Positions 38,527 through 59,070 of a DNA stretch of 64,000 nt are shown in pieces. The notes under the pieces were generated by a model. The model was not told the origin of the DNA. It did not search any database and worked only from the letters and a program-made list of their open reading frames with translations. The stretch lies in NCBI GenBank assembly GCA_023251725.1, contig JAHEYG010000005.1:1-64000 (forward strand). Direction: 5' to 3'. This DNA is from Sphingobacteriaceae bacterium (GTDB lineage Bacteria > Bacteroidota > Bacteroidia > B-17B0 > Aurantibacillaceae). Position 1 is the stretch's first letter. Every line of letters begins with the position of its first letter. The translations under genes were made by a program, and so were the position numbers.

Positions 38527-41500
38527 TTATTCGACCACTACTTTTACAGTTTTGTAATTATCACCAATCTTAAATAAGAGGTTGTACATTCCTTTTCCGT
38601 ATTTACTTAAGTCAACACTTAGCGTTGATTTATTTTGTGGAATAAATTGTATCATTTGTCCTATACTATTGTAAACCGTTACATCATAGGCATCGGCTAT
38701 ATCAGCATTAACAGTAAACTTTCCGTTATTAGGATTTGGAACCACGTAAATATTTCCGGTATAATTCACACTTAACTGCGCAACTCCTAAACAAAGACTG
38801 ATTGTAATTGTGGAAGCGGCTGAATTGCTGCAAGCGGTAACGGTATTTGTATACAAATAAGATACAGTATAAACTCCGGCCGCTGCTTGAGGATTAAATG
38901 TTGAACCCACAACACCAACACCAGAATAAACTCCACCAGCAGGTGAACCCGTTAAGGCAATGGTTGAACCACCGGTACCTGAAGTACAATCGTTGGTAAT
39001 GGCCGGCGTTACAGTTACACCCGGTAAAGCATTCACAATAATAGAAGTAGTTTGTGTATTTGTACACGGACCGTTAGCTCCAACAACAGTATAAGTTGTA
39101 TTTACAATCGGGCTCACTACAATGTTTGGGGTAGTTGGTCCGGTATTCCAGGTATAAGAGGCGGCGCCGCTCGCAGTTAATGTGCCTGAACTTCCGCTGC
39201 AAATGGTAGCAGCAGTAACAGTAACAGAAGGAATAGAGTTTACAGTAATCGAAGTGGTTTGAGTATTAGTACAAGCTCCTGCAGCGCTTGTTCCGGTAAT
39301 TGTATAGTTGGTGGTTATTATTGGAGAAACAACTATGGCAGCAGTAGTAGGACCGGTGTTCCAAGAATAAGTGGTTGCACCGCTTGCCGTTAATGTTGCA
39401 GAACCTCCTGTACAAATGCTGGCGTTATTTACAATTACAGTTGGCGTTACGTTTACAGTAACGGTACTGGTTTTTACATTTAAACAACCACCGTTAGCAC
39501 CAGTTACAGTATAAACAGTAGTTACTGCCGGTGAAACAGAAATGGTATTTGTAATTGGCCCGGTATTCCACGAATAAGTTAGAGCACCACTTGCAGTTAA
39601 AAGTGCATTATTGCCCGAACAAATAGTTGAATTATTTACAGCTACAGTTGGAGTAGGCCCAACAAATACAGTAGTTGAAAATGAATTTACGCATCCTAAA
39701 GCATTCGTTCCGGTAACAGTATAATTTGTTGTTGCCACAGGCGACACCACAATTACAGTTGTTGTTGGCCCGGTATTCCAGGTATAAGTATTAGCACCGC
39801 TCGCAGTTAATGTGGCCGAACCAATTCCGCTGCAAATACTTGCTGTGTTCGAAGAAACTGCCGGCAATGCATTTACAGTAACGGTAGAAGTTTTTACGTT
39901 GGTACATCCGGCAGAAGTTCCGGTAACCGTATACATCGTAGTTACAATTGGAGAAACAGAAATTGTATTAGTGATAGGTCCTGTATTCCAACTATAGGTT
40001 GTCGCACCTGATGCAGTTATTAATACAGGTGTTCCCGCACAAACTGTTGCGTTATTCACAGCTACCGTTGGATTTGGTGTAACGGTCACCGTAGAAGTTT
40101 TTACGTTTGTACAACCGCTCGTTGTTCCGGTAACAGTATAAGTTGTAGTTACGGCAGGAGAAACAGAAATTGTATTTGTTATTGGTCCCGTATTCCAACT
40201 ATAAGTGGTAGCACCGGCGGCTGTTAAGATAGCCGACGAACCCGCACAAACCGTTGCGTTATTCACAGCTACGGTTGGATTTGGTGTAACGGTCACCGTA
40301 GAAGTTTTTGCATTAGTACATCCGGCAGTAGTTCCTGTTACAGTATAAATGGTTGTTACCGCAGGCGCAACAGCAAGTGTATTTGTTGTTGGGCCGGTGT
40401 TCCAAGTATAAGTTGTAGCACCCGATGCAGTTAAGTTGGCGGTTGAACCTGCACACACTGTTGAACTGTTTACAGCAACTGTTGGAGATGCATTTACAGT
40501 AACTGCAACTGTAGAGGTATTGCTGCAACCCCCGGTGGTTCCGGTTACAGTATAAGTTGTATTTGCAACGGGCGAAACAGCTGCTGTACTCGTTGTTACA
40601 CCTCCTGCATTTGCACTCCAGGTATAATTAGTCGCGCCTCCACCGGTTAGTGTAGTTGCAAAGCCTGCACAAATTGTAGGAGATGTCGCAGTGCTGGTGA
40701 CCGTAGGTGTTGGATTAACAATGATGGTTTGACTTACTGGAGCACTCGAGCCAATTCCATTTGTTGAAATTAAAGTTACAGTATAAGTTCCTGCACTGGC
40801 GTAAGTAACAGTTGGATTTTTTACTGATGAAACTGAAGGCACGGCGCCGGGGAAAGACCAGTTCCATGAGGTTGGTGCATTGGTTGACGCATCACTAAAG
40901 AAAACACTTTGTCCGCTGCAAGGACTAGCTGCGGTATAAGTAAACGCAGCCGTTGGAGGTAAACTCGCCACTGTTCCGGTGAGATTTACGTTATCAATAT
41001 AAATAGCTTGTCCATAACGTCCGCGGTTTTGGAACGACACCATTACATTGGCCATTCCTGAATAAGCATTTAAATAAACCGTATCCGTTCGCCATTGTGC
41101 AGCGGTAGGAATAAAAATAGAAGCAGTTTGATCAGGAGCCGTTGCTAAATTGGTTCCTCCAACCGGACCGCCGCCTTTTAAATATTTTTGAGTCCAAGTT
41201 ACTCCGCAATCAGTAGAAACCATAATAGCGAGTGAATCGCTATAGGTAGGATCATATCTGGCGTAAGCCACATCAAAAAACATTTTTACATTGGTATAAC
41301 CAACAAAAGAATATTTAGGTGCGCGCATTTCGTCGCGTGTGTTAGAAGCGTTTAAATTATAATTATCAAAATACATACTGGCAGCAGGTTTACCCACTCC
41401 CGCATTTCTTGCCCATTTAATTCCATCGGTAGCGGCATCGTAATTTTGCCAGTTAGGTGGAGGAAATGCCGCTGTAGTAAATCCTTCAAATAAAGGCAAG

Positions 41501-44115
41501 GCATTGGTTGGTGAAACGGTAATGTATAATGTTTTTGTCATTACACTTGTTCCGTTAATATTGGAAGCAGTTAATGAAACACTATAAGTTCCGGGCGCAG
41601 CATAAACTACTGAAGGATTTTGTACTGTGGAAGTGGCCGGTGCTCCCGACTGGAAAACCCAACTCCATGTTGTAGGTCCAAACGTAGAGAGGTCAGTATA
41701 GTTAACAGTCATGCCAGGACAAATAAAAGTTTTATCAGCAATAAAATTGGCGATAGGGGCCAGCGTTCCGTTATTATATAAATCTGCTTCCCAAACACTA
41801 CGGCCATAAGTAGCGGCACGCAATTTTCCGAGCGGATAAAATATTGCTAAATCCGAAACCTGAACATTTGGAAGCCCGGTATTGTAAGGTATCCAACTTG
41901 CGAGCAAGGAATCTTTGTAGTAAACCCCAACATCACAACCAACATACATTCCGTCTTGTGTACCGTTCCAATAAGTAATACAATTGGTTGGGAGGTTTGG
42001 TAAGCCCGCCGAAATATTTGTCCATGTTGCTCCACCGTTAGTTGACTGAAAAACTTTATTTCCTGCCGAATACCCCGAAAAAGTTACCCAAACACTATTG
42101 GGATCTACTTCTTCAACTGCTACCCATGTTAATTGAGCGCTTCCCACAGGCAAAGTTCCTGTTACATTTGACCACGTTGTTCCACCATTGATAGTTTTAT
42201 TTAAAGTGTTTCCTTTGATGGAATAAATTATTTGACTATTGGAAGGCGCTACTGCAAACTCAACAATACTTCCTCCGCCGGCAATGGTTCCAATTTGAGC
42301 CCAATTGGTTCCTTGATTAGTTGTTTTAAACATTTGTTGCCGGCCCGAATAAAGTGTATTTGCTACAACAGGATCCTGATGCCAAGGTGTTACCCAGGGC
42401 GCGGCACCTGTCATACCCGTGGTAATAGCTGTCCAATTTGCTCCTCCATTTAAAGTGCGATTAAATGAACCGGAATATTGTTCACCATACATAACCAAAT
42501 CATTAAACTGGTCAATAAAACAATCCATTCCGTCTCCGCCCATAGTTCCGCTCCATCCGCCGGTATATAAATTAGTGCCATTGTCCTGATGTCCGGTTAT
42601 TGCTAAATTGTAAGTATTTTTTGAGTTACCGATTTTATAAATTTGCGCGATATCCATATTCCCATTAATGGCAGCAAAAGAAGTTCCGCCGTTACTTGTG
42701 AAGAAAGCGCCACCGTCGCAACTAACAAATACCGAAGTACCATTGGTATAAATTAAATCATGAATATCGGCGTGTACATAAGGCGCTCCTGATCCGGTCC
42801 AATGTGCAAATAATTGCCAACTGGTTCCGGCATTTGTAGTTCTCCAAATGTTTACTCCCCCAACGCAAACCTCATTGGGATTAGTTGGAGAAGCAGCAAT
42901 TGATAAAGTGTACCAGCCTTGTCCTCCGGCAGCAACGTCATTACCGGCACTGGCCCAACCTAAAAGATTAAGAGCAGTAGGAATTTGTGTGAACGAAGTT
43001 CCACTATTTGTAGATTGATAAAATCCTAAAAATCCGCTGTTGGAGGAAGCGCTTGCAACAACATAAACATAAGCGGCATTTGCAGGAGTAACGGCGATTG
43101 CTAATCGGTTGTTAGCAGTTCCGTTTGGAACGCCTGCAATGGCAGCAAATGAACTTCCGCCATTGGTAGATTTATAAAAAGTTGTGCTACAAGCGTAAAC
43201 TGTGGTAGTATCACCGGGTTTATACTCTACATCAGTTACAACGCCAGCTCCAATCACTGCGTTCCAGGTGGTTCCGCCGTTTTGGGTGCGGTATAAACCA
43301 ATAGTTGTTGCTGCAAAAATGGTGTTTTTATTTAATGGATTAATAATCATTTTGTAAATTCTGCGCCCTTGAGATACGGTCCATGCCAAACCGGTAGCTG
43401 CCCACGTAACTCCACCGTTAGTTGATTTTAAAACTCCTAAACTATAGCAATCGCCCGCATCACCGTCGCCGGAGGCCATCCACATATTATTTTGATTGGT
43501 GGGATCGAACACTACATCTGAACAACCAATAGCACTGAGCTGATTGGTGTTGGTGTTCCAGCTACCCCCGAAACTTGAAGTACTCCATAAACCGCCGGCA
43601 GGTGCGCAAGCCCAGTAACCGTTAGGAACCGTTGGATCTGGATGAATGGCGTTAATGCGACCGGCATTAGCACCCGATAAATCACCTAAAGGCCCAATGG
43701 CCTGCCATGTAGAAGAAGTAATGGTGTTGCCGATTAATTTTTGTTGCGAGTTTTGATTTAAATAATTTTGATATTCTTCATAGTGGCGAGAAGCTAACGT
43801 TTTATCACCGGAAGGATAAACACGCGGTGCCACATAACTTTCCCAACGCTTATAAAGTTCATAGCCGGCTAACTCCTGTTCCTCTTCTCTTCCTAAAAGA
43901 CCCCTTCCTTCGGTTTTTTCTTCACGTTCGCGCGCTAATTCTTTTTCAAACGGTTTATAAAGTTTATTCATCCGTTTTTGAGTAACATAAAAATTTTCAT
44001 TTGGATCGAGCCAATCAAATTTCCCGGGGGTGGTTTTTGAATTTTGTGCAGTGATTGGTGTAAACAAAAAACTAAACAAAATTAAGGCGATGAATTTTTG
44101 TAAAAAATTTCTCAT
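38527..44115 (-). CDS. giant T9SS surface protein: BNR/sortilin propeller, PKD, choice-of-anchor J and eight Ig-like repeats
   Basis: An 1862-residue exported protein. Order: signal peptide (about 1-24), a charged linker with EKELAREREEKTEGRG, a sortilin/BNR-type propeller (about 140-760, repeating STNGGxTW and NTIFAATTIGLYRTQNGG), a PKD domain (about 770-850), a choice-of-anchor J jelly roll (about 855-1045), a second PKD (about 1050-1130), eight tandem Ig-like repeats of about 70 residues (about 1134-1694), a divergent ninth, and a type A sorting domain (VPNPNNGKFTVN to KTVKVVVE). It is presumably an adhesin or surface-bound enzyme-like filament delivered by T9SS. It stands alone with its own terminator. 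The domain boundaries are approximate. Confidence 0.9.
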   Translation of the reverse strand: MRNFLQKFIALILFSFLFTPITAQNSKTTPGKFDWLDPNENFYVTQKRMNKLYKPFEKELAREREEKTEGRGLLGREEEQELAGYELYKRWESYVAPRVYPSGDKTLASRHYEEYQNYLNQNSQQKLIGNTITSSTWQAIGPLGDLSGANAGRINAIHPDPTVPNGYWACAPAGGLWSTSSFGGSWNTNTNQLSAIGCSDVVFDPTNQNNMWMASGDGDAGDCYSLGVLKSTNGGVTWAATGLAWTVSQGRRIYKMIINPLNKNTIFAATTIGLYRTQNGGTTWNAVIGAGVVTDVEYKPGDTTTVYACSTTFYKSTNGGSSFAAIAGVPNGTANNRLAIAVTPANAAYVYVVASASSNSGFLGFYQSTNSGTSFTQIPTALNLLGWASAGNDVAAGGQGWYTLSIAASPTNPNEVCVGGVNIWRTTNAGTSWQLFAHWTGSGAPYVHADIHDLIYTNGTSVFVSCDGGAFFTSNGGTSFAAINGNMDIAQIYKIGNSKNTYNLAITGHQDNGTNLYTGGWSGTMGGDGMDCFIDQFNDLVMYGEQYSGSFNRTLNGGANWTAITTGMTGAAPWVTPWHQDPVVANTLYSGRQQMFKTTNQGTNWAQIGTIAGGGSIVEFAVAPSNSQIIYSIKGNTLNKTINGGTTWSNVTGTLPVGSAQLTWVAVEEVDPNSVWVTFSGYSAGNKVFQSTNGGATWTNISAGLPNLPTNCITYWNGTQDGMYVGCDVGVYYKDSLLASWIPYNTGLPNVQVSDLAIFYPLGKLRAATYGRSVWEADLYNNGTLAPIANFIADKTFICPGMTVNYTDLSTFGPTTWSWVFQSGAPATSTVQNPSVVYAAPGTYSVSLTASNINGTSVMTKTLYITVSPTNALPLFEGFTTAAFPPPNWQNYDAATDGIKWARNAGVGKPAASMYFDNYNLNASNTRDEMRAPKYSFVGYTNVKMFFDVAYARYDPTYSDSLAIMVSTDCGVTWTQKYLKGGGPVGGTNLATAPDQTASIFIPTAAQWRTDTVYLNAYSGMANVMVSFQNRGRYGQAIYIDNVNLTGTVASLPPTAAFTYTAASPCSGQSVFFSDASTNAPTSWNWSFPGAVPSVSSVKNPTVTYASAGTYTVTLISTNGIGSSAPVSQTIIVNPTPTVTSTATSPTICAGFATTLTGGGATNYTWSANAGGVTTSTAAVSPVANTTYTVTGTTGGCSNTSTVAVTVNASPTVAVNSSTVCAGSTANLTASGATTYTWNTGPTTNTLAVAPAVTTIYTVTGTTAGCTNAKTSTVTVTPNPTVAVNNATVCAGSSAILTAAGATTYSWNTGPITNTISVSPAVTTTYTVTGTTSGCTNVKTSTVTVTPNPTVAVNNATVCAGTPVLITASGATTYSWNTGPITNTISVSPIVTTMYTVTGTSAGCTNVKTSTVTVNALPAVSSNTASICSGIGSATLTASGANTYTWNTGPTTTVIVVSPVATTNYTVTGTNALGCVNSFSTTVFVGPTPTVAVNNSTICSGNNALLTASGALTYSWNTGPITNTISVSPAVTTVYTVTGANGGCLNVKTSTVTVNVTPTVIVNNASICTGGSATLTASGATTYSWNTGPTTAAIVVSPIITTNYTITGTSAAGACTNTQTTSITVNSIPSVTVTAATICSGSSGTLTASGAASYTWNTGPTTPNIVVSPIVNTTYTVVGANGPCTNTQTTSIIVNALPGVTVTPAITNDCTSGTGGSTIALTGSPAGGVYSGVGVVGSTFNPQAAAGVYTVSYLYTNTVTACSNSAASTITISLCLGVAQLSVNYTGNIYVVPNPNNGKFTVNADIADAYDVTVYNSIGQMIQFIPQNKSTLSVDLSKYGKGMYNLLFKIGDNYKTVKVVVE
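39034..40716 (-). repeat. eight tandem Ig-like coding repeats (about 210 bases each)
   Basis: Inside the giant gene, eight consecutive units of about 69-74 residues share the pattern xPTVxVNxxTxCAGxxA, LTASGATTYxWNTGPxT, VSPxVTTxYTVTG and GCTNxxTxxVTV, each with two Cys. Neighbouring units (third and fourth from the N-terminal side) are nearly identical at the DNA level, pointing to recent duplication or homogenisation, whereas outer units are more diverged. Confidence 0.9.
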
Positions 44116-45828: not shown

Positions 45829-46365
45829 CTATATTTTTTTAACAGGTAAAGAAATACTAATGTTTACTTCGTCTTTAACTTTCCAGTCGCTCGTTCCCAC
45901 CGCATAATCTACCCTGTTAATATTTAAAGTTCCGGTAAAAATCCCGCTTGCTCCGATATCTTTAAAAGTAAAAGGAAAGTTTATTTTTTTTGTAATTGCC
46001 TTAATGGTTAAATTACCTTCTAAAGAATAACCGCTTGCCGTTTTTGTTATAGCACTTGATTTAAAAATGATAGTAGGAAATTTAGCGACATCAAAATAAT
46101 CTTCCTTTTTTAAATGTCCGTCGCGACTACTATTACTGGTGTTTAAAGTATTTACATCAAAACCAATATTAAAAAAACTTTTAGTTAAGTCGTTATCGTC
46201 AAAATGAATGTTGCCTTTTACGCCTCCAATAGTACCATTACAGGTACCGAGCCAGGAGCCAATGGCAAAAGTAACTTTGTAAGAAGGTTCAACGCTATAA
46301 CCCTGATTTATTTTAAAAGCTAAAACAGAAATTAAAATTATAGAAACAATAACTATTTTTTTCAT
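45829..46365 (-). CDS. YceI family periplasmic protein
   Basis: A 178-residue exported protein with a signal peptide (about 1-22) and a YceI lipocalin-like barrel: YKVTFAIGSWLGTCNGTIGGVKG, then SRDGHLKKEDYFDVAKFPTIIFKS, the most conserved part, and GSWKVKDEVNI-like ending SDWKVKDEVNISISLPVKK. YceI proteins bind isoprenoids or amides. It follows the cupin-like gene by 11 bases in the same direction and likely shares its transcript. Confidence 0.92.
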   Translation of the reverse strand: MKKIVIVSIILISVLAFKINQGYSVEPSYKVTFAIGSWLGTCNGTIGGVKGNIHFDDNDLTKSFFNIGFDVNTLNTSNSSRDGHLKKEDYFDVAKFPTIIFKSSAITKTASGYSLEGNLTIKAITKKINFPFTFKDIGASGIFTGTLNINRVDYAVGTSDWKVKDEVNISISLPVKKI

Positions 46366-46376
46366 AAGATTTTCAT

Positions 46377-47456
46377 TTATTTTTTTTGAGATTTTTTTGC
46401 TTCCTGTTCGGCCATTTTACGTTTTGCATCTTCCAATTTTTTTACTTCGGCCAAATGCAATTCATTAATATCTTTTTTATATAAACTGTAGGCTTTCCAA
46501 ATTGGAGGTTTAGTTGCAAAAACATCCAGCGAAAAATATAATGGGGAAGTTTTGTAAGAATAAAAAGGCGAGAGCCAACGGTACCCCACTCCAATAGAAT
46601 CGCTCACATTTTTTACAGCGTGCCAGTAAAATGGCGGATTCCATAATATATCGCCGGGCTTTAAGTGCACCGAATAACCATCTAAATATTTATACAATTC
46701 ATAAGGCGCATTAAAATCGGGTTCAAAAGGATTGAACGGACCGGCTTCTACTTTACCCGGCGCACTGCGATAAACATTATTAATGGGAGACGGATCTACA
46801 ATGGAAGAATAATAGTGCGAATACAACACCCATTTTTTTTCGCCATACACCTGAACAAATAAATTGGATTGATTGGCATTGTGTAATGAGGTATAAGAAC
46901 CTTCGCCACCAATAAAAATCTGAAAGGCATCGAACCAAACGGGTTTTGTTCTTCGCTCGCGAAGCCATTTGTAATCGAAATCATTGATGTGTTCGGGATG
47001 CCGAACTAAAAGAGGATAAAAACGGTAATACTTACTTCCGCCGCCTCGTATATTATCAATCACCTCGGCAAGTGTGGTCAGCTCATAAGGAAAATCGGTT
47101 TTGCCCTGATCTACCAGAACAATTTCGTCTTTGCCATGCAGTTCTTTAAAATATTGGAGCGACCATTTTTTTACGCAGTCCCAATCGAGTGCGGCGCCTT
47201 CCATTACTACCGGAATTCCTTTAGCCACATAATGTTCTTTAAATTCTTTTAAGCTTAAATCTTTTCTCCTTTCAATAGGCATAATTTTACCTTCGCCATG
47301 CTTCTTCATGCTTTCGAGAACATCTTTGTAAAATTTACCGCGGCCTTTTGCAAATAATTTTTTACGACCAAAAAAATGATCTACCCATTGGTAAAAACCA
47401 TATTTGAAACGTAATGCCGACGTGAGGTTTCTTTTAAAATCTCTATGTTGTTCCAT
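46377..47456 (-). CDS. cupin_8 / JmjC-like protein lacking the canonical iron-ligand Asp
   Basis: A 359-residue cytoplasmic protein of the cupin_8 group related to factor-inhibiting-HIF hydroxylases. Alignment by eye with the FIH core: T189-x-x-H192 matches T196/H199, N198 matches N205, K207 matches the 2-oxoglutarate-binding K214, and H279 in FYWHAV matches H279. However the expected HxD reads H192-N-A194, so the acidic ligand is Ala. HxA/HxG plus distal His is seen in Fe/2OG halogenases, so either a halogenase-like or a non-hydroxylase role is possible. The C-terminal helix is rich in Lys and Glu. The gene is 33 bases below the polytopic membrane protein gene and just above yceI. Confidence 0.82.
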   Translation of the reverse strand: MEQHRDFKRNLTSALRFKYGFYQWVDHFFGRKKLFAKGRGKFYKDVLESMKKHGEGKIMPIERRKDLSLKEFKEHYVAKGIPVVMEGAALDWDCVKKWSLQYFKELHGKDEIVLVDQGKTDFPYELTTLAEVIDNIRGGGSKYYRFYPLLVRHPEHINDFDYKWLRERRTKPVWFDAFQIFIGGEGSYTSLHNANQSNLFVQVYGEKKWVLYSHYYSSIVDPSPINNVYRSAPGKVEAGPFNPFEPDFNAPYELYKYLDGYSVHLKPGDILWNPPFYWHAVKNVSDSIGVGYRWLSPFYSYKTSPLYFSLDVFATKPPIWKAYSLYKKDINELHLAEVKKLEDAKRKMAEQEAKKSQKK

Positions 47457-47489: not shown

Positions 47490-49139
47490 TTAAGGAATTA
47501 AAACTTCATCAATTATTTTTTTATTGAGTAAAGTTATTTTTTCCTTTTGGGAATAGAATTGATTAAAAATTACCCGAAAGACCCGCACCTCTTCCTGATT
47601 ATGATACGACAAATGCGCTGAAGAATTATATAAATGATGAGGTGCAGAAAGTTTTGAAAGAATAAAAGTGTTTTCCAGTAATTTATTTCGATTCAAAAAA
47701 TAGGTTTTAATAAAAGCTTCATAATTTTGTTTTTTCAGCGAATCGAAACTGTTCTCACCTTTTTTTTCTTCCAATTTAAAATAACCTTCCGCCCCTGCAT
47801 TTTTAATTTCAAGAGCTAATTTATACTGGGCTACGTAACCAAATCCGCTCACCGGCAAACATTTTTGATTCATTAAAAATAAAAAACGGTCGTACTGAAA
47901 CCATTGGTGATAAGGATTCATTTCATTTTTCTCCAGTTCGTAAATTTTCCCGTTTTTATCTTCTACTTCATAAGTAAAAAATTGATTTACGGGGGTATCA
48001 AACCATCCGATGGAAACGGGCCGAAGCCAAATAAACGAAGTAATAATAATTGGCAGCGAAGCCATAAAATATTTTCTAGAAAATAATTCATTAACCAAAA
48101 ATCCTTTTTTATAAAACAAAATAAAAGTCAACAACAAATTAACGAACATCCATTTCCAGAACAGCATACTTCCAAAAATAAAAATCCCAAGATGCATAAA
48201 GCAAAAAAGAATTAAAAAAGTAAGGGCGAGTTTTCGCGATTGAAATAAAAATAATCCCGACAATTCAATCAATAAAATAAATATTTGTAATATTTTACCG
48301 TTGTTATTTAAAAACCAATATATCCCGGTAATAGTTTCTTTTGGAGTTAAAGAGAGCCATCCACGTAAATGCACATTCAAAAATAAATCACCGGGATTAT
48401 TATAAAGTAACCACTCGTAACCGTGGGGCGACATGCTGATTTTTGCGACACCACTCATGAAATAATTAGAAGCCACAATGCATAAAGCAAAAAACAGGAA
48501 CGGAATTTTTATGGCAGGAATTAATATTTGGGCGTACAGGTATACCGTAAACATTAAAAGCAAATCAAATAGTAAACGCTTATCGAACAACGGAAACCCA
48601 TCAACCGGAAAATTAAATTGCGACCGATATAAATAAGCAAAGGCAATGAACACAGGAGTAAGAATCGGATACCGAAGCAGCAAAACTGACAGAAGGAGCA
48701 AAAAAAGACGATCGAAATAAAAGGCTTGATTTAAATAATAATTATAATTATAGGTAGATAATTCCCAAGCTAAAATAAATGCTGAGGCAAACACAAGCCA
48801 TTGCGCCGCCGATGGATAATAATTCTCTTTTGTGGATAATAATTTTCGCTTAAAATAAAGCGGAAGGCAAAATAAAACCAAACCCAACAAAAAAAGTAGA
48901 TTCGTTAAGGCAGATAAAATAACAGAGGATGAAAAATAAGGAACGTGAATAAAAATTGCAGGCGCTTTATTTATCCCGAATAAAAAGGAGTTGAAACGCT
49001 CAAAAGTGTGAAGAAAACCTTCGTAAAAAATAGAAGCGCACAGTAAACGACAAATAAAAAACAAAACAAGTATTAAAATTATTTGTCCGCTAAATTTTTC
49101 CGTAAATCGATTAACCCTTATTAGAACACCGGAAGGCAT
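47490..49139 (-). CDS. polytopic membrane protein (HTTM / gamma-carboxylase-like layout)
   Basis: A 549-residue integral membrane protein with about ten to twelve hydrophobic helices over residues 15-370, then a soluble C-terminal domain of about 175 residues (PVNQFFTYEVEDKNGKIYELEKNEMNPYH). The layout resembles HTTM/vitamin-K-carboxylase-like membrane proteins of bacteria (SGVAKISMSPHGYEWLL, HLRGWLSL), but I cannot confirm the catalytic residues. It lies 33 bases above the cupin-like gene, so the two are probably co-transcribed. Function unknown. Confidence 0.55.
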   Translation of the reverse strand: MPSGVLIRVNRFTEKFSGQIILILVLFFICRLLCASIFYEGFLHTFERFNSFLFGINKAPAIFIHVPYFSSSVILSALTNLLFLLGLVLFCLPLYFKRKLLSTKENYYPSAAQWLVFASAFILAWELSTYNYNYYLNQAFYFDRLFLLLLSVLLLRYPILTPVFIAFAYLYRSQFNFPVDGFPLFDKRLLFDLLLMFTVYLYAQILIPAIKIPFLFFALCIVASNYFMSGVAKISMSPHGYEWLLYNNPGDLFLNVHLRGWLSLTPKETITGIYWFLNNNGKILQIFILLIELSGLFLFQSRKLALTFLILFCFMHLGIFIFGSMLFWKWMFVNLLLTFILFYKKGFLVNELFSRKYFMASLPIIITSFIWLRPVSIGWFDTPVNQFFTYEVEDKNGKIYELEKNEMNPYHQWFQYDRFLFLMNQKCLPVSGFGYVAQYKLALEIKNAGAEGYFKLEEKKGENSFDSLKKQNYEAFIKTYFLNRNKLLENTFILSKLSAPHHLYNSSAHLSYHNQEEVRVFRVIFNQFYSQKEKITLLNKKIIDEVLIP

Positions 49140-49160: not shown

Positions 49161-49892
49161 TTAAAACTCGAAACTATATCCTATTCCATAAACAAAGTCT
49201 TTTTCTAAAATATAATCATCGGCACGATAAGAATTATGTTGTTTGAACCAGGCTCCGTTTTGTAAACGGTTCTGATACATAAAATATAATTCTAACTGTT
49301 GTTTTTTAAAAGTATTTACAAATACGCCAGCAAATGTTCTGGTTCGGTCGATACCCGAAATTTGCGGACTATTAAGCGGGATGTATAATTCTTCGGCAAC
49401 GTAAAACGAAAAACGTTTATTGTATTCGTATTTAATAATAAATTTATTTCTATCGTAATGATACGCGATGAGGCCACTTGCACTTGTGTAAGGATTTTTA
49501 TACTCAAACTGATACATGGCACGGTATGCAAATCGCCATCGTGCAAAATCCTTTTTAATTGTAAAAGCGATGTAATACTGGTGCGTGGTTCCAAAAACAT
49601 CAGGATAATCGCTGGATTGTATATTGGCTCTTTTTTGTGAAAACACATAATCGGCAAAAACCTTAATGTCTTTGCTTATTTTATAGGTAATTCCAATATC
49701 AGCGTAAGCGAATGTAAATTGAGAAATGTTATTGGTTAACCGGTCTTGCTGATTGAGATGAACAGAAAATTTTTTATTAATTTTTTTCTCAAGGTATAAA
49801 TTAAACCATAATTGAGCATCGTTTGATGTAAAGGTTTGTGCCAATGAAAACGCCGAAAGAATTAAAAATAATTGTAAGAAAAGGCGTTTCAT
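49161..49892 (-). CDS. DUF2490 outer membrane protein
   Basis: A 243-residue exported barrel protein with a signal peptide (about 1-18, ending FSLAQ). The DUF2490 pattern is evident: DAQLWFNLYLEKKINKKFSVHLNQQDRL, then ADIGITYKISKDIKVFADYVFSQ and GASGLIAYHYDRN-like strands, ending ...YGIGYSFEF with the terminal aromatic of outer-membrane barrels. It follows the DUF4956 gene by 10 bases and the VTC gene, so it forms a polyphosphate-polymerase-type operon. Role unknown; structural or transport function is possible. Confidence 0.85.
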   Translation of the reverse strand: MKRLFLQLFLILSAFSLAQTFTSNDAQLWFNLYLEKKINKKFSVHLNQQDRLTNNISQFTFAYADIGITYKISKDIKVFADYVFSQKRANIQSSDYPDVFGTTHQYYIAFTIKKDFARWRFAYRAMYQFEYKNPYTSASGLIAYHYDRNKFIIKYEYNKRFSFYVAEELYIPLNSPQISGIDRTRTFAGVFVNTFKKQQLELYFMYQNRLQNGAWFKQHNSYRADDYILEKDFVYGIGYSFEF

Positions 49893-49902
49893 ATTTTAAA
49901 AT

Positions 49903-50547
49903 TTATTCATAATAGTAAACTTTAATTTGCGCAGCATCTTTCAAGAAATCAATTTTTTGAATGGAGATGCGATGCGCATTTATTCCGGTTCTGTTTTTAA
50001 TATCGGCCAGCAACTCTTCTTGACGGTTAGACTGAATAAGTTCGATGTTTTCGTAAATGATAAGTTTGGCCATTTCTTTTTTCATAAGAACACTGCTTTC
50101 TAATAAATAAGTGATTACCAGAATAACCAGATTTACTCCCCCCAAAAATAAATATTCAAGCGAATCGGGGGCATCTTTAATTTTTGTGACGGCGCACGTC
50201 AAACCAATGGCGATGCTTAAAAAGAGATAGGTCATGTCTTTGATGGAAATATCTTCGGTACGATAGCGTAACATGCTGAAGACTGCAAATAAACCAAAGG
50301 CGGCTCCCATCGAGAGGTCGACCTTATTTAAAAGAAAAGAAATTAAAAATATAATAAGATTGAAAATAAAAAAAGTAAAAAATAATTCACGGTGTTTATA
50401 AATCGGATAATAAATAAATCTTACCAATATAAAAACAGAAGCCAAATCAATTAAAATCCTGAATCCGATTTTAGAACTTACTTTTATAAAACTGTCCATT
50501 CCGGCGGCAATGGTGGTCTCGTCAACTACCTGAAGTATCGTTAGCAT
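49903..50547 (-). CDS. DUF4956 membrane protein
   Basis: A 214-residue protein with four TM helices in the N-terminal two-thirds (about 28-48, 54-72, 82-95, 105-123 and 130-150 hydrophobic) and a soluble C-terminal part (ENIELIQSNRQEELLADIKNRTG). The conserved block GAAFGLFAVFSMLRYRTEDISIKDMTYLFLSIAIG is the DUF4956 core. Its ATG overlaps the stop of the VTC gene by seven bases (ATGCTAA), so the two proteins are translationally coupled. DUF4956 and VTC-domain proteins occur together in many genomes. Confidence 0.88.
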   Translation of the reverse strand: MLTILQVVDETTIAAGMDSFIKVSSKIGFRILIDLASVFILVRFIYYPIYKHRELFFTFFIFNLIIFLISFLLNKVDLSMGAAFGLFAVFSMLRYRTEDISIKDMTYLFLSIAIGLTCAVTKIKDAPDSLEYLFLGGVNLVILVITYLLESSVLMKKEMAKLIIYENIELIQSNRQEELLADIKNRTGINAHRISIQKIDFLKDAAQIKVYYYE

Positions 50548-51287
50548 ATTAAATGTTTTATGGTATGTAATTTTTCTTTGAAATTATTTTTCTTTACAGT
50601 ATCGCAGGTAAGCGCAATGCCTAAACAATATTTACTGATTGAGCCTTCGCGAATATGATATTTTTTCATCACTTTAATAAATGGGGAAGATTTTCTTTTT
50701 TCCTGTTTTACTTCGGCAATTACCAAATTACTTAATTTTTTTGTAATCTTACCATTCACAAATTCAAGATTTAGATCAATCGTTAAACGTTCGGCGTCCG
50801 CCATGTTAACCAAGGTAAGTCTGCTGTAATTAACCCATAGAACAGGTAGTAAAGTTTGCGGTTCAAATGGAAGTAGTGTATTTAAAAAAGTTTCTGATTC
50901 TCCTTCCCAATTCATAGGCACTTCACTTTTTTTAATTCTGTTCTTAACGGTGCGGCCTTTATTATTTTTAAATTTTACTTCTAAAAAACCAAGCTTAGAT
51001 TCCACGTAAGTGCGGTGACGGATTTTATAACGGTTTAATTCGCCATTATGATGTTTGGTATATAAATTAAGTTTGGCAGTATCGTAATAAAGTGTTTTAT
51101 AACCACTGATACGCTTGCCCTCGATTTCAAGCACACGGTAATTTTTAGAAATATCTTCCAATATATTTTCGAACTGAATTAAATTAAATGTAAATTTAGT
51201 ATCGGTACGATTCATTAGTTTAACACCGTCCATTTTTTTAAGAGTGGTCGATTCAAACTTTTGTAATATGTCTAAAGTTTTTTTCAA
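50541..51287 (-). CDS. VTC-domain polyphosphate polymerase
   Basis: A 248-residue protein of the triphosphate-tunnel superfamily. The tunnel residues are visible: NRTDTKF at 27-33, YDTAKLNLYTKHHNGELN, RYKIRHRTY and FLEVKFKNNKGRTVK, then NYSR, LTIDLNLEF, AEVKQEK and ISKYCLG. These correspond to the basic and acidic residues that bind phosphate and metal in yeast Vtc4. It probably makes or binds polyphosphate at the membrane. The start is TTG at 51287, directly after the stop of the preceding gene; no ATG competes. It overlaps the DUF4956 gene by seven bases. Confidence 0.88.
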   Translation of the reverse strand: MKKTLDILQKFESTTLKKMDGVKLMNRTDTKFTFNLIQFENILEDISKNYRVLEIEGKRISGYKTLYYDTAKLNLYTKHHNGELNRYKIRHRTYVESKLGFLEVKFKNNKGRTVKNRIKKSEVPMNWEGESETFLNTLLPFEPQTLLPVLWVNYSRLTLVNMADAERLTIDLNLEFVNGKITKKLSNLVIAEVKQEKRKSSPFIKVMKKYHIREGSISKYCLGIALTCDTVKKNNFKEKLHTIKHLIC

Positions 51288-56637: not shown

Positions 56638-59070
56638 ATGGAAGAAGAAAATAAAAATGCCGAACAAATAAACAATGAACAGCCTTTACAGGAGAGAATA
56701 GAAATTCCCGAATTGAAAAATACGTTTCGCTATTTTCCTTTTCACAATCAAATCCTACCAATTATTGTTTTGGCATTAATTGGCGTAATTTTTTATTGCA
56801 CCTCTCTTTACAACGAAGCGGCGCTAGACGATGGCATAATCATTCATCAAAACGATTATGTTTTACAAGGCGCAAAAGGTATTAAAAAAATTATGACACG
56901 AGATGCTTATGCCAGTTTTTATGAGCGAATGAATGCCAAAGATCAGCTAGTGGGAGGAAGGTACCGACCGTTAGCTATAATTAGTTTCGCTCTCGAGCAA
57001 GAAATAATAGGAAAGTATGAGAATGGCGCTTATTCAAACAATTGTTGGGATTTAAATAATAATGGAGTTGGCGATTTAGCTGAAGATTTAAATAAAGACG
57101 GCGTTTACAATGAAGTGGATTGTCAGGTAAAAGGTTCTTTTTTGCGGCATTTCGATAATATGTGGACTTACATTTTAGGATGTATCCTTTTATATTTGGT
57201 TTTCAGAAATCACATGTTTCGCGATAATCAGGATATGGCTTTTTTATCGGCACTAATTTTTTTAGCTCATCCTGTTCATAGCGAGGTGGTGGCTAATATA
57301 AGAGGGCGACAAGATATTTTTTCTTTAATTTTCATTTCACTCACTTTTTTGTTTGCGTTTAAATTTATTGATACTAAAAAAGTAAGTTCTTTAATTATTG
57401 CAGTGGTGATGTTTTTTCTGGCGTTGTTGTCGAAAGAATACGCAACCATTTTATTAGGATTAATTCCATTGGCGTTTTATGTTTTTAAGAAAATTGATTT
57501 TGAGTTTAAGGCACTTCTTCCTTTAACATTTGTTTTTTTAGTATGCGTGTTTGCGATGTTGTTCATTAAATCGCAAATGGGTTTGGCATGTACGGCACAT
57601 AGCTTTAGACAACTAAGAAATATGCCTTTTATTTATTATGGTTTAATTTTTTCGGCCGGATATATTTTATTTACAGTTTTGGTTTACCGCAAAACATTGT
57701 TGCAAAAAAACCTTAACACACTATTAATATGTTTTTACGGAGTGTTTTTATTTTATGTTGGTTTGCGTTTTAATGCTGTAAGTTTAGCACCCGGTGTACC
57801 CGATACCGAATTATTAAATAATCCGTATTTATTAGCTACAGGCGAAGAAAATTTGGCGACGAGAATATTTGTGTTCCTTAAATATTTTAATTTAGCATGG
57901 TTTCCAAAAGATTTAACGGTTGGGTATTCTTACGATTCGGTAAGGTATCATCATTTTACTGATTGGGATTTTATTTTATCGGCAATTTTACATTTAGCAC
58001 TTTTATTTTTTGGAATTAAGCTCGTTGTAAAGCGTCATGTTTTTGGATTCGCTATTATAACCTATTTGGCTTTTTTATTATTGGTAAGTAATTTATTTTT
58101 TAATCTGGGAGCGGTAATGATAGAACGCTGGATGTTTCATGCCACTATCGGCTTTGCCATTGCAGCTGCCTGGTTAATTTTAAATGGATTTGATAAAATT
58201 CAATCGGTGAGTTTTAATACGAGGCGAATTGTTATGTTTAGTTTATTGGGAATAGTTTTATTTTTATACGGATGCAAAACCTGGGAGCGAAATTTTGATT
58301 GGAAAAACGACATTACACTTTTTGTGAAAGATGTAACAACAGGTCCGGATGATGTTTTATGCTTGGGAAACGCCGGCGCGCGCTGGATTGATATGGCCGA
58401 TATGGAATATTTTACCAATAAAGGAAGTGACAAAACTCAATTACCATTTAGTACATACAATAATAAAATGTTGGAGTTTAAAGTTTCGGAAGAAGAACTT
58501 AGGAATGGTTTTACAATAGACAATATTATTTTGGCTGGCGTAGGAGAATTTAAAAACGAACAGAATTTAACTCAGCGTGAACGTGCGCTATATAAGGGTA
58601 TCGGATATTTAAAACACGCTGTGAACTTACATCCTCGTTATGTGAATGGATATTTAAATTTGGGATTAGCCTATTATAAATTAAATCGCGAGCGGGAGGC
58701 GATTTATAATTGGAAGATGGCAGAAGAGTTGTACCCCACTAATCCTTACTTAAGAAATTATTATATTGTTTATTATAATCAGTTACTCCAACGTGGATAT
58801 AAATTGGCTTCTGAAGGAAAATTTGTGGAGTCAGTTAATGAATTAAACAAATGCATTATCCTCGACAAATATAATCCCGAGGGTTGGTACAATTTAGGAG
58901 GCGCTTATTTTAATTTGAAAAATACAACAAAAGCAAGATGGTGCTGGACAGAGGCACTTAAACTGAATCCCAATTACGATCAGGCTTTAAAGTCAATGGC
59001 TAATCTCAATGGAAAAACAACTGAGGATATGTTAATAGTGAAAAGTAAAAATAAACGTGAAAAAAAATAA
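56638..59070 (+). CDS. TMTC-like polytopic membrane protein with C-terminal TPRs
   Basis: An 810-residue protein with about ten TM helices and a C-terminal TPR region (about 665-795, YVNGYLNLGLAYYKLNREREAIYNW and WYNLGGAYFNLKNTTKARWCW). Near the N-terminus NEAALDDGIIIHQNDYVLQG supplies the Asp-Asp of GT-C glycosyltransferases, GGRYRPLAIISFA follows in the next loop, and AHPVHSEVVANIRGRQDIF matches the signature of the eukaryotic TMTC O-mannosyltransferase family and DUF1736-type bacterial proteins. It may glycosylate exported proteins using a lipid-linked sugar. It lies 45 bases after the anti-sigma-like gene. Confidence 0.75.
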   Translation: MEEENKNAEQINNEQPLQERIEIPELKNTFRYFPFHNQILPIIVLALIGVIFYCTSLYNEAALDDGIIIHQNDYVLQGAKGIKKIMTRDAYASFYERMNAKDQLVGGRYRPLAIISFALEQEIIGKYENGAYSNNCWDLNNNGVGDLAEDLNKDGVYNEVDCQVKGSFLRHFDNMWTYILGCILLYLVFRNHMFRDNQDMAFLSALIFLAHPVHSEVVANIRGRQDIFSLIFISLTFLFAFKFIDTKKVSSLIIAVVMFFLALLSKEYATILLGLIPLAFYVFKKIDFEFKALLPLTFVFLVCVFAMLFIKSQMGLACTAHSFRQLRNMPFIYYGLIFSAGYILFTVLVYRKTLLQKNLNTLLICFYGVFLFYVGLRFNAVSLAPGVPDTELLNNPYLLATGEENLATRIFVFLKYFNLAWFPKDLTVGYSYDSVRYHHFTDWDFILSAILHLALLFFGIKLVVKRHVFGFAIITYLAFLLLVSNLFFNLGAVMIERWMFHATIGFAIAAAWLILNGFDKIQSVSFNTRRIVMFSLLGIVLFLYGCKTWERNFDWKNDITLFVKDVTTGPDDVLCLGNAGARWIDMADMEYFTNKGSDKTQLPFSTYNNKMLEFKVSEEELRNGFTIDNIILAGVGEFKNEQNLTQRERALYKGIGYLKHAVNLHPRYVNGYLNLGLAYYKLNREREAIYNWKMAEELYPTNPYLRNYYIVYYNQLLQRGYKLASEGKFVESVNELNKCIILDKYNPEGWYNLGGAYFNLKNTTKARWCWTEALKLNPNYDQALKSMANLNGKTTEDMLIVKSKNKREKK

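Follow-up and report, generated by a model that had tools for sequence, protein, structure and literature searches.

The window, i.e. the whole stretch of 64,000 nucleotides analysed here, carries on its minus strand an intact open reading frame for a protein of 359 amino acids (P0001); the plus strand opposite to it is full of stop codons. The predicted protein matches Cupin_8 (PF13621; E-value 5.5e-25, 89.1 bits against a cut-off of 27.4), and its AlphaFold2 model (pLDDT 84.0, pTM 0.83) has the double-stranded beta-helix fold. A scan against NCBIfam gave no named family for P0001, and there was no match to the AspH family (PF05118) at E-values up to 0.1; a CmeU match at 4e-4, obtained with NCBIfam for seven of 43 cupin-family members, is too weak for use. 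The features of the locus are summarized in Table 1.

Table 1. Features of the cupin locus in the window (the codon of residue r of P0001 runs from position 47456-3(r-1) down to 47454-3(r-1))
Feature	Position	Strand	Basis
Cupin_8/JmjC-fold protein, 359 aa, two-His site H192-x-A194...H279	46377..47456	-	Open reading frame, Pfam, AlphaFold2 model
Codons of H192-N193-A194, proximal His and the Ala replacing the Asp ligand	46875..46883	-	Translation and alignments
Codon of K207, position of the lysine for the 2OG carboxylate	46836..46838	-	Translation; K in 53/53 family rows
Codon of H279, distal iron His	46620..46622	-	Translation; H in 52/52 family rows
Partner membrane protein, 549 aa, predicted GGCX-like fold	47490..49139	-	Structure model; no Pfam match
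YceI-like protein, 11 bases downstream of the cupin reading frame	45829..46365	-	Open reading frame list and Pfam

The reading frame of the membrane protein stops 33 bases ahead of the cupin start codon, which confirms the partner gene named in the first-pass annotation; membrane protein, cupin and YceI-like gene form one same-strand run. No linkage of the YceI-like gene to the cupin was seen in the relatives' loci. Closely spaced genes for DUF2490, DUF4956 and VTC proteins are located upstream of the membrane protein (49161-51287, minus strand), and DUF2490 was not found near the cupin in any of the 36 relatives' loci. The window also encodes a secreted repeat protein of 1862 amino acids, in which the repeats are PKD-like and the C-terminal tail is of the sorting type (38527-44115, minus strand), and a TPR protein of 810 amino acids with a PMT-like region (56638-59067, plus strand), relatives of which (23-30% identical) are neighbours of the cupin in other loci.

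Alignment with FIH supports the first reading of the iron site, in that T189, H192, N198, K207 and H279 correspond to FIH residues and Ala194 (H-N-A) occupies the position of the Asp ligand; Y143 is presumably a further 2OG residue, as in JMJD5. The conservation check proposed with that reading gave a family of 53 dereplicated members with no HxD member inside it, the residues at position 194 being Ala (45), Ser (3), Gly (2), Glu (2) and Asn (1), so that the classical HxD/E...H pattern is absent from P0001 (A194) and nearly so from the family (D 0/53, E 2/53), whereas related Bacteroidota cupins outside the family have Asp there in 32 of 32 cases. The other residues of the site are almost invariant (H192, K207 and Y143, each 53/53; N198, 52/53; H279, 52/52). 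These 53 rows are not independent of each other; after thinning to less than 75% identity, 31 remain, in which position 194 is Ala (23), Ser (3), Gly (2), Glu (2) or Asn (1). Membership was assigned by locus from a gap in E-values and not by motif (family at 1e-65 or better, next match at 1e-29, in a panel of 395 genomes of the class). The family alignment A1 comprises 43 rows and omits the second listing of the window's own protein, L044 as a near copy, one of the two L054 copies (the second), the second L062 copy (a reading frame of 734 amino acids), the reading-frame pieces of L047 and L052, L035 (reading frame not called) and L066 (no reading frame matched); the 53-row set takes in L066 and a twin of the second copy of L054.

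A set of 60 related genomes, that of the window among them, yielded 11 full-length relatives of the cupin at 65-81% identity, and public genomes yielded 36 relatives' loci, of which, judged from the record titles, 34 are from Bacteroidota and two from Planctomycetota (the latter at 39-40% identity). Cultured strains with a close homologue include Acidiluteibacter ferrifornacis (L054) and Haloflavibacter putidus (L057). In the class panel the family is present in 14 of the 395 genomes at 1e-65 or better, or in 13 without a distant HxG member. In a phylum-wide scan of 395 genomes, the window's own was the single one with a match at an E-value of 1e-40, hence the family is patchy. Comparison of the window gene with six relatives gave pN 0.14-0.23 and pS 0.68-0.84 in all six pairs (dS saturated in four of the six), which shows purifying selection on the gene. 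Single-gene decay, against which the first reading had cited the retained 2OG lysine, is rejected because HxA is common to the orthologues and because of this selection. A search of the open-licence literature found no description of this cupin family, and no paper that brings together halogenases, Bacteroidetes, sulfotransferases and cupins; a halogenase-mining preprint contains none of the words cupin, JmjC and Bacteroid, and the portion covered of one paper on cupin, JmjC, halogenase and 2-oxoglutarate does not contain the family.

In structural comparison with VIA-align, the top row for the P0001 model was the OocPQ halogenase (8a82; Z 25.1, 312 residues, rmsd 3.5, model residues 2..328), followed by JMJD5 (Z 24.6, 229 residues, rmsd 2.1, model residues 56..295); a Z difference under 1 is a tie, thus OocP and JMJD5 are tied by Z and unequal in coverage. 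JMJD5 was the best match in Foldseek (6.9e-20) and in a sequence search of the PDB with the family profile (8.7e-30; OocP, 6.9e-15). The nearest fold relatives after OocP, namely JMJD5 (KDM8), TYW5, JMJD7 and FIH, are hydroxylases, which share the beta-helix core, the His pair and the 2OG lysine with the window protein but have Asp at the third-ligand position and score 41 to 62 bits toward an HxD profile. OocP shares the Cupin_8 fold over the 312 aligned residues and has HxG (H-Q-G) where the window protein has H-N-A, but is only about 16% identical to it and has Ser in place of N198. The alignment further shows that OocP shares W209, V281 and N283 with the window protein, residues that occur in 0/32, 0/32 and 1/32 of the Bacteroidota HxD cupins. 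Some plasmid HxD cupins have one or two of the three, which are therefore hints and not a signature.

For an assessment independent of the ligand residue, profiles of the HxA family and of HxD cupins were compared with the ligand column removed. OocP scored 69.6 bits with the family profile and 54.7 bits with the HxD profile (+14.9), and an HxA cupin from a Planktothrix plasmid scored 119.7 and 99.4 bits (+20.3 for the family profile), whereas all nine HxD-lineage proteins (JMJD5, FIH and seven plasmid cupins) favoured the HxD profile by 18 to 69 bits. In a tree inferred after removal of the same column, the 33 rows of the HxA/G lineage all fall to one side of a branch with support 98/82, and OocP pairs with the Planktothrix protein (100/98). 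The OocP branch is very long (2.75), and a placement of OocP among the HxD cupins was not rejected by an AU test (p 0.132); read with that alternative in mind, the sequences suggest that the window cupin and OocP share one side of the Cupin_8 family.

For the oocydin synthase, OocP is described as an Fe(II)/aKG-dependent halogenase that acts in trans and works with OocQ, and chlorinated intermediates were abolished in a strain without oocQ and oocR (PMC11260071); deletion of oocP led to loss of activity against fungi (PMC4552970, as far as the available text goes). In this respect the systems differ, since OocP has its partner OocQ and acts on a polyketide synthase (available sections of PMC11260071), while no OocQ counterpart was identified for the window protein and there is no polyketide synthase beside the window gene. 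Halogenases of the SyrB2, CytC3 and WelO5 types are described, in the parts of the literature available, with the same HxA/G motif and a free site for halide, but they belong to other branches of the 2OG superfamily. Human AspH and its bacterial relatives (PF05118) likewise have a two-His iron site with Gly replacing Asp, but form a sequence family separate from the window cupin; the available sections on human AspH describe a hydroxylase with HxG...H, a tightly held water at the position of the missing Asp, and no halogenation seen in chloride (PMC6817910, PMC13168262). In FIH, replacement of Asp201 by Gly left some hydroxylase activity, whereas the variants with Ala or Glu were inactive (available text of PMC8252765). 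The existence of such two-His hydroxylases (AspH, the FIH Gly variant) rules out HxA alone as a sign of halogenation.

The genes within approximately 8 kb of the cupin were counted in 37 loci, i.e. the 36 relatives' loci and the window. Two types of ketosynthase (nine and ten loci), SDR reductases (10), family-2 glycosyltransferases (12), GNAT acyltransferases (12), sulfotransferases (12), AspH-type hydroxylases (10), TPR mannosyltransferase-like proteins (7) and the membrane partner (13, window included) are found. In all four loci examined, a reading frame of 77-80 amino acids with the look of a carrier protein is located between the two ketosynthases; such a carrier protein and ketosynthases are found beside the cupin in several relatives' loci, but not beside the window gene. 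The longer ketosynthase (KS351) is present in 12 of 13 cupin-family genomes (12 of 14 with the distant HxG member) versus 66 of 395 overall (hypergeometric 2e-9, uncorrected for relatedness of the genomes), and in six of the 12 it is on the cupin contig within approximately 16 kb. In the window's genus KS351 is encoded elsewhere in the genome, and six of seven other genomes have it at 47-55% identity; a close KS351 was not found in the window's own genome, which is 75% complete (best match, 28% identity). A distant single member (L080:1195-2487) has H-N-G and an N-terminal extension, and the ketosynthase is missing from its genome at the threshold used.

A comparable set of genes is known from Flavobacterium psychrophilum, where a pair of ketoacyl-ACP synthases, together with an ACP and a reductase, provides the 3,5-dihydroxyhexanoyl group of an O-polysaccharide sugar (available sections of PMC6519341). 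The wfpC-wfpD-wfpE-wfpF genes resemble the cupin loci in having two ketosynthases with the ACP between them, a reductase and an acyltransferase; the likeness is one of arrangement, and no cupin is mentioned in the available part of that source (PMC6519341). By analogy, KS351 is probably one of the ketosynthases that make the N-acyl groups carried by O-antigen sugars. AspH-family (PF05118) hydroxylases with H-x-G adjoin the cupin at L048:12297-13043, L061:11745-12500 and in 15 other reading frames; with such genes in 10 of the 37 loci, the same clusters already use two-His chemistry, and the AspH-type family and the cupin are two unrelated two-His 2OG families in the same clusters.

In 12 of the 36 relatives' loci, the gene immediately upstream of the cupin encodes the membrane partner. 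Strong matches to it were found in five of the 395 genomes, all five of which also have the cupin (hypergeometric 2e-8), in one case (G382) on a different contig; a sixth, weak match (5e-17) is in a genome without the cupin. No Pfam match was obtained for any of 13 members at E-values up to 1, the GGCX and HTTM models included. The structure model of the membrane partner (pLDDT 83.1) points to a fold like that of vitamin K-dependent gamma-carboxylase (GGCX), to which there is no match in sequence: the first three Foldseek rows were GGCX, albeit not significant (E 0.23-0.57), and the best 12 rows in VIA-align were all GGCX (Z 8.2-9.9, 226-320 residues, rmsd 4.6-7.3), followed by a helical protein at Z 8.0 and then by 5.4, on a scale where values below 13 can be chance in helical proteins. 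Lys233 is invariant and lies in a YFxxGxxK stretch, which we take to resemble the region of the catalytic lysine of GGCX. A PDB search with the membrane-protein family found nothing, and a literature search for bacterial GGCX/HTTM homologs found none.

The observations so far comprise the family-wide loss of the acid, the retained residues of the site, the fold, the nearness to OocP and the co-occurrence with the ketosynthase module and with a partner of predicted GGCX fold. We consider the window cupin, as a member of a conserved, OocP-related family of two-His Fe(II)/2OG enzymes, to be most likely a halogenase (probability approximately 0.5). The enzyme would be cytosolic, with the iron held by H192 and H279 and with 2OG bound via Y143, T189, N198 and K207; the coordination site left free by the missing Asp would be taken by chloride (or bromide), and an unactivated carbon would be halogenated. 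Judged by the neighbouring genes, a carrier- or glycan-bound acyl group is the most likely substrate, e.g. a short acyl group on an acyl carrier protein or one already on a surface-glycan sugar, and the cupin may act jointly with the membrane protein. The halogenase-like reading put forward at first is thus upheld in part: the top structural match, OocP with its HxG, favours it, but the motif that had suggested it is insufficient as an argument.

A two-His Fe(II)/2OG hydroxylase in the manner of AspH, with a tight water at the Asp position and acting on the same acyl, sugar or peptide substrate, is a serious possibility and, at about one chance in three, the leading competitor. Such chemistry has its precedents in human AspH, a two-His hydroxylase for which no halogenation was observed, and in the residual activity of the FIH Gly variant; H-x-G PF05118 genes are neighbours of the cupin, and the fold relatives JMJD5, TYW5, JMJD7 and FIH are all hydroxylases. 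The inactivity of FIH with Ala or Glu at this position speaks against it, as Ala is the main residue of the family and would accordingly be ill-suited to a plain hydroxylase of this fold (the precedent being one enzyme), and so do the profiles and the tree, which put the halogenase OocP on the side of the HxA family.

A role as a non-catalytic binder of 2OG or metal, or as an inactive subunit that supports a second oxygenase in the way OocQ assists OocP, is improbable. This option, also raised at first, would suit the tandem copies (10 of 36 loci) as pairs of active and helper proteins, and the Ala variant of FIH is reported as inactive; it is rendered less likely by the retained His pair and 2OG-binding positions, by the near-invariance of the other site residues under purifying selection, and by the single cupin copy per genome in the window's genus, with no HxD twin in the HxA family. 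An ordinary 2-His-1-carboxylate oxygenase with its third ligand from another acid is highly improbable, given that in place of D221, though it is family-specific (50/52 versus 0/21 outside), the HxA protein of Planktothrix has Tyr and OocP a non-acidic residue, and that D269, though invariant (52/52), corresponds to Asp or Glu in 32 of 32 HxD cupins and so has another role. Judged on sequence, none of the candidates D221, D269 and E155 is both an acid throughout the HxA/G proteins and different from the HxD cupins, and neither an HxD member of the family nor a substitute acid common to all HxA/G members, either of which would have weakened the first reading, was seen.

If the cupin is a halogenase, a widespread branch would be added to the very few halogenases of the Cupin_8/JmjC fold, and halogenated surface glycans or acyl groups in Bacteroidota become testable. 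An extended proposal, i.e. that a new Cupin_8 halogenase branch chlorinates or brominates short acyl groups that the KS-ACP-KS-reductase module makes and that end up on surface sugars, that environmental Bacteroidota carry halogenated glycans, and that in the window's genus a GGCX-like membrane enzyme acts on the same product, is speculative and, taken as a whole, rather unlikely. If the cupin is a hydroxylase, it would be the natural HxA counterpart, in the same fold, of the FIH Asp201 experiments, and bear on the choice between halogenation and hydroxylation. In either case, annotation pipelines that require HxD/E miss HxA cupins, and pipelines based on the motif only cannot separate halogenase from hydroxylase.

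Tandem copies of the cupin, two to five per locus, were found in 10 of the 36 loci. The two rows with Glu at position 194 come from sister copies within a single tandem set of five genes, and on the tree they fall inside the Ala group; with Glu at the site in these two paralogues, some copies may hydroxylate. Tandem arrays have A and E (L055:6870-16482) or A, G and N (L061:7980-11573) at the ligand position, and paralogues that differ in this residue may have different chemistry; a further array contains a double-length reading frame of 734 amino acids (L062:8127-10328). Cupin copies at L047:6896-7900 and L052:7995-9065 are broken into two reading frames each, representing either assembly frameshifts or decaying copies. 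The Planktothrix agardhii plasmid NZ_LR882940.1 encodes a cupin of the same lineage with H-C-A (L111:8463-9566) in a terpene-like cluster, which comprises genes for a squalene/phytoene synthase and a prenyltransferase/squalene oxidase repeat protein as well as several P450 and Rieske genes.
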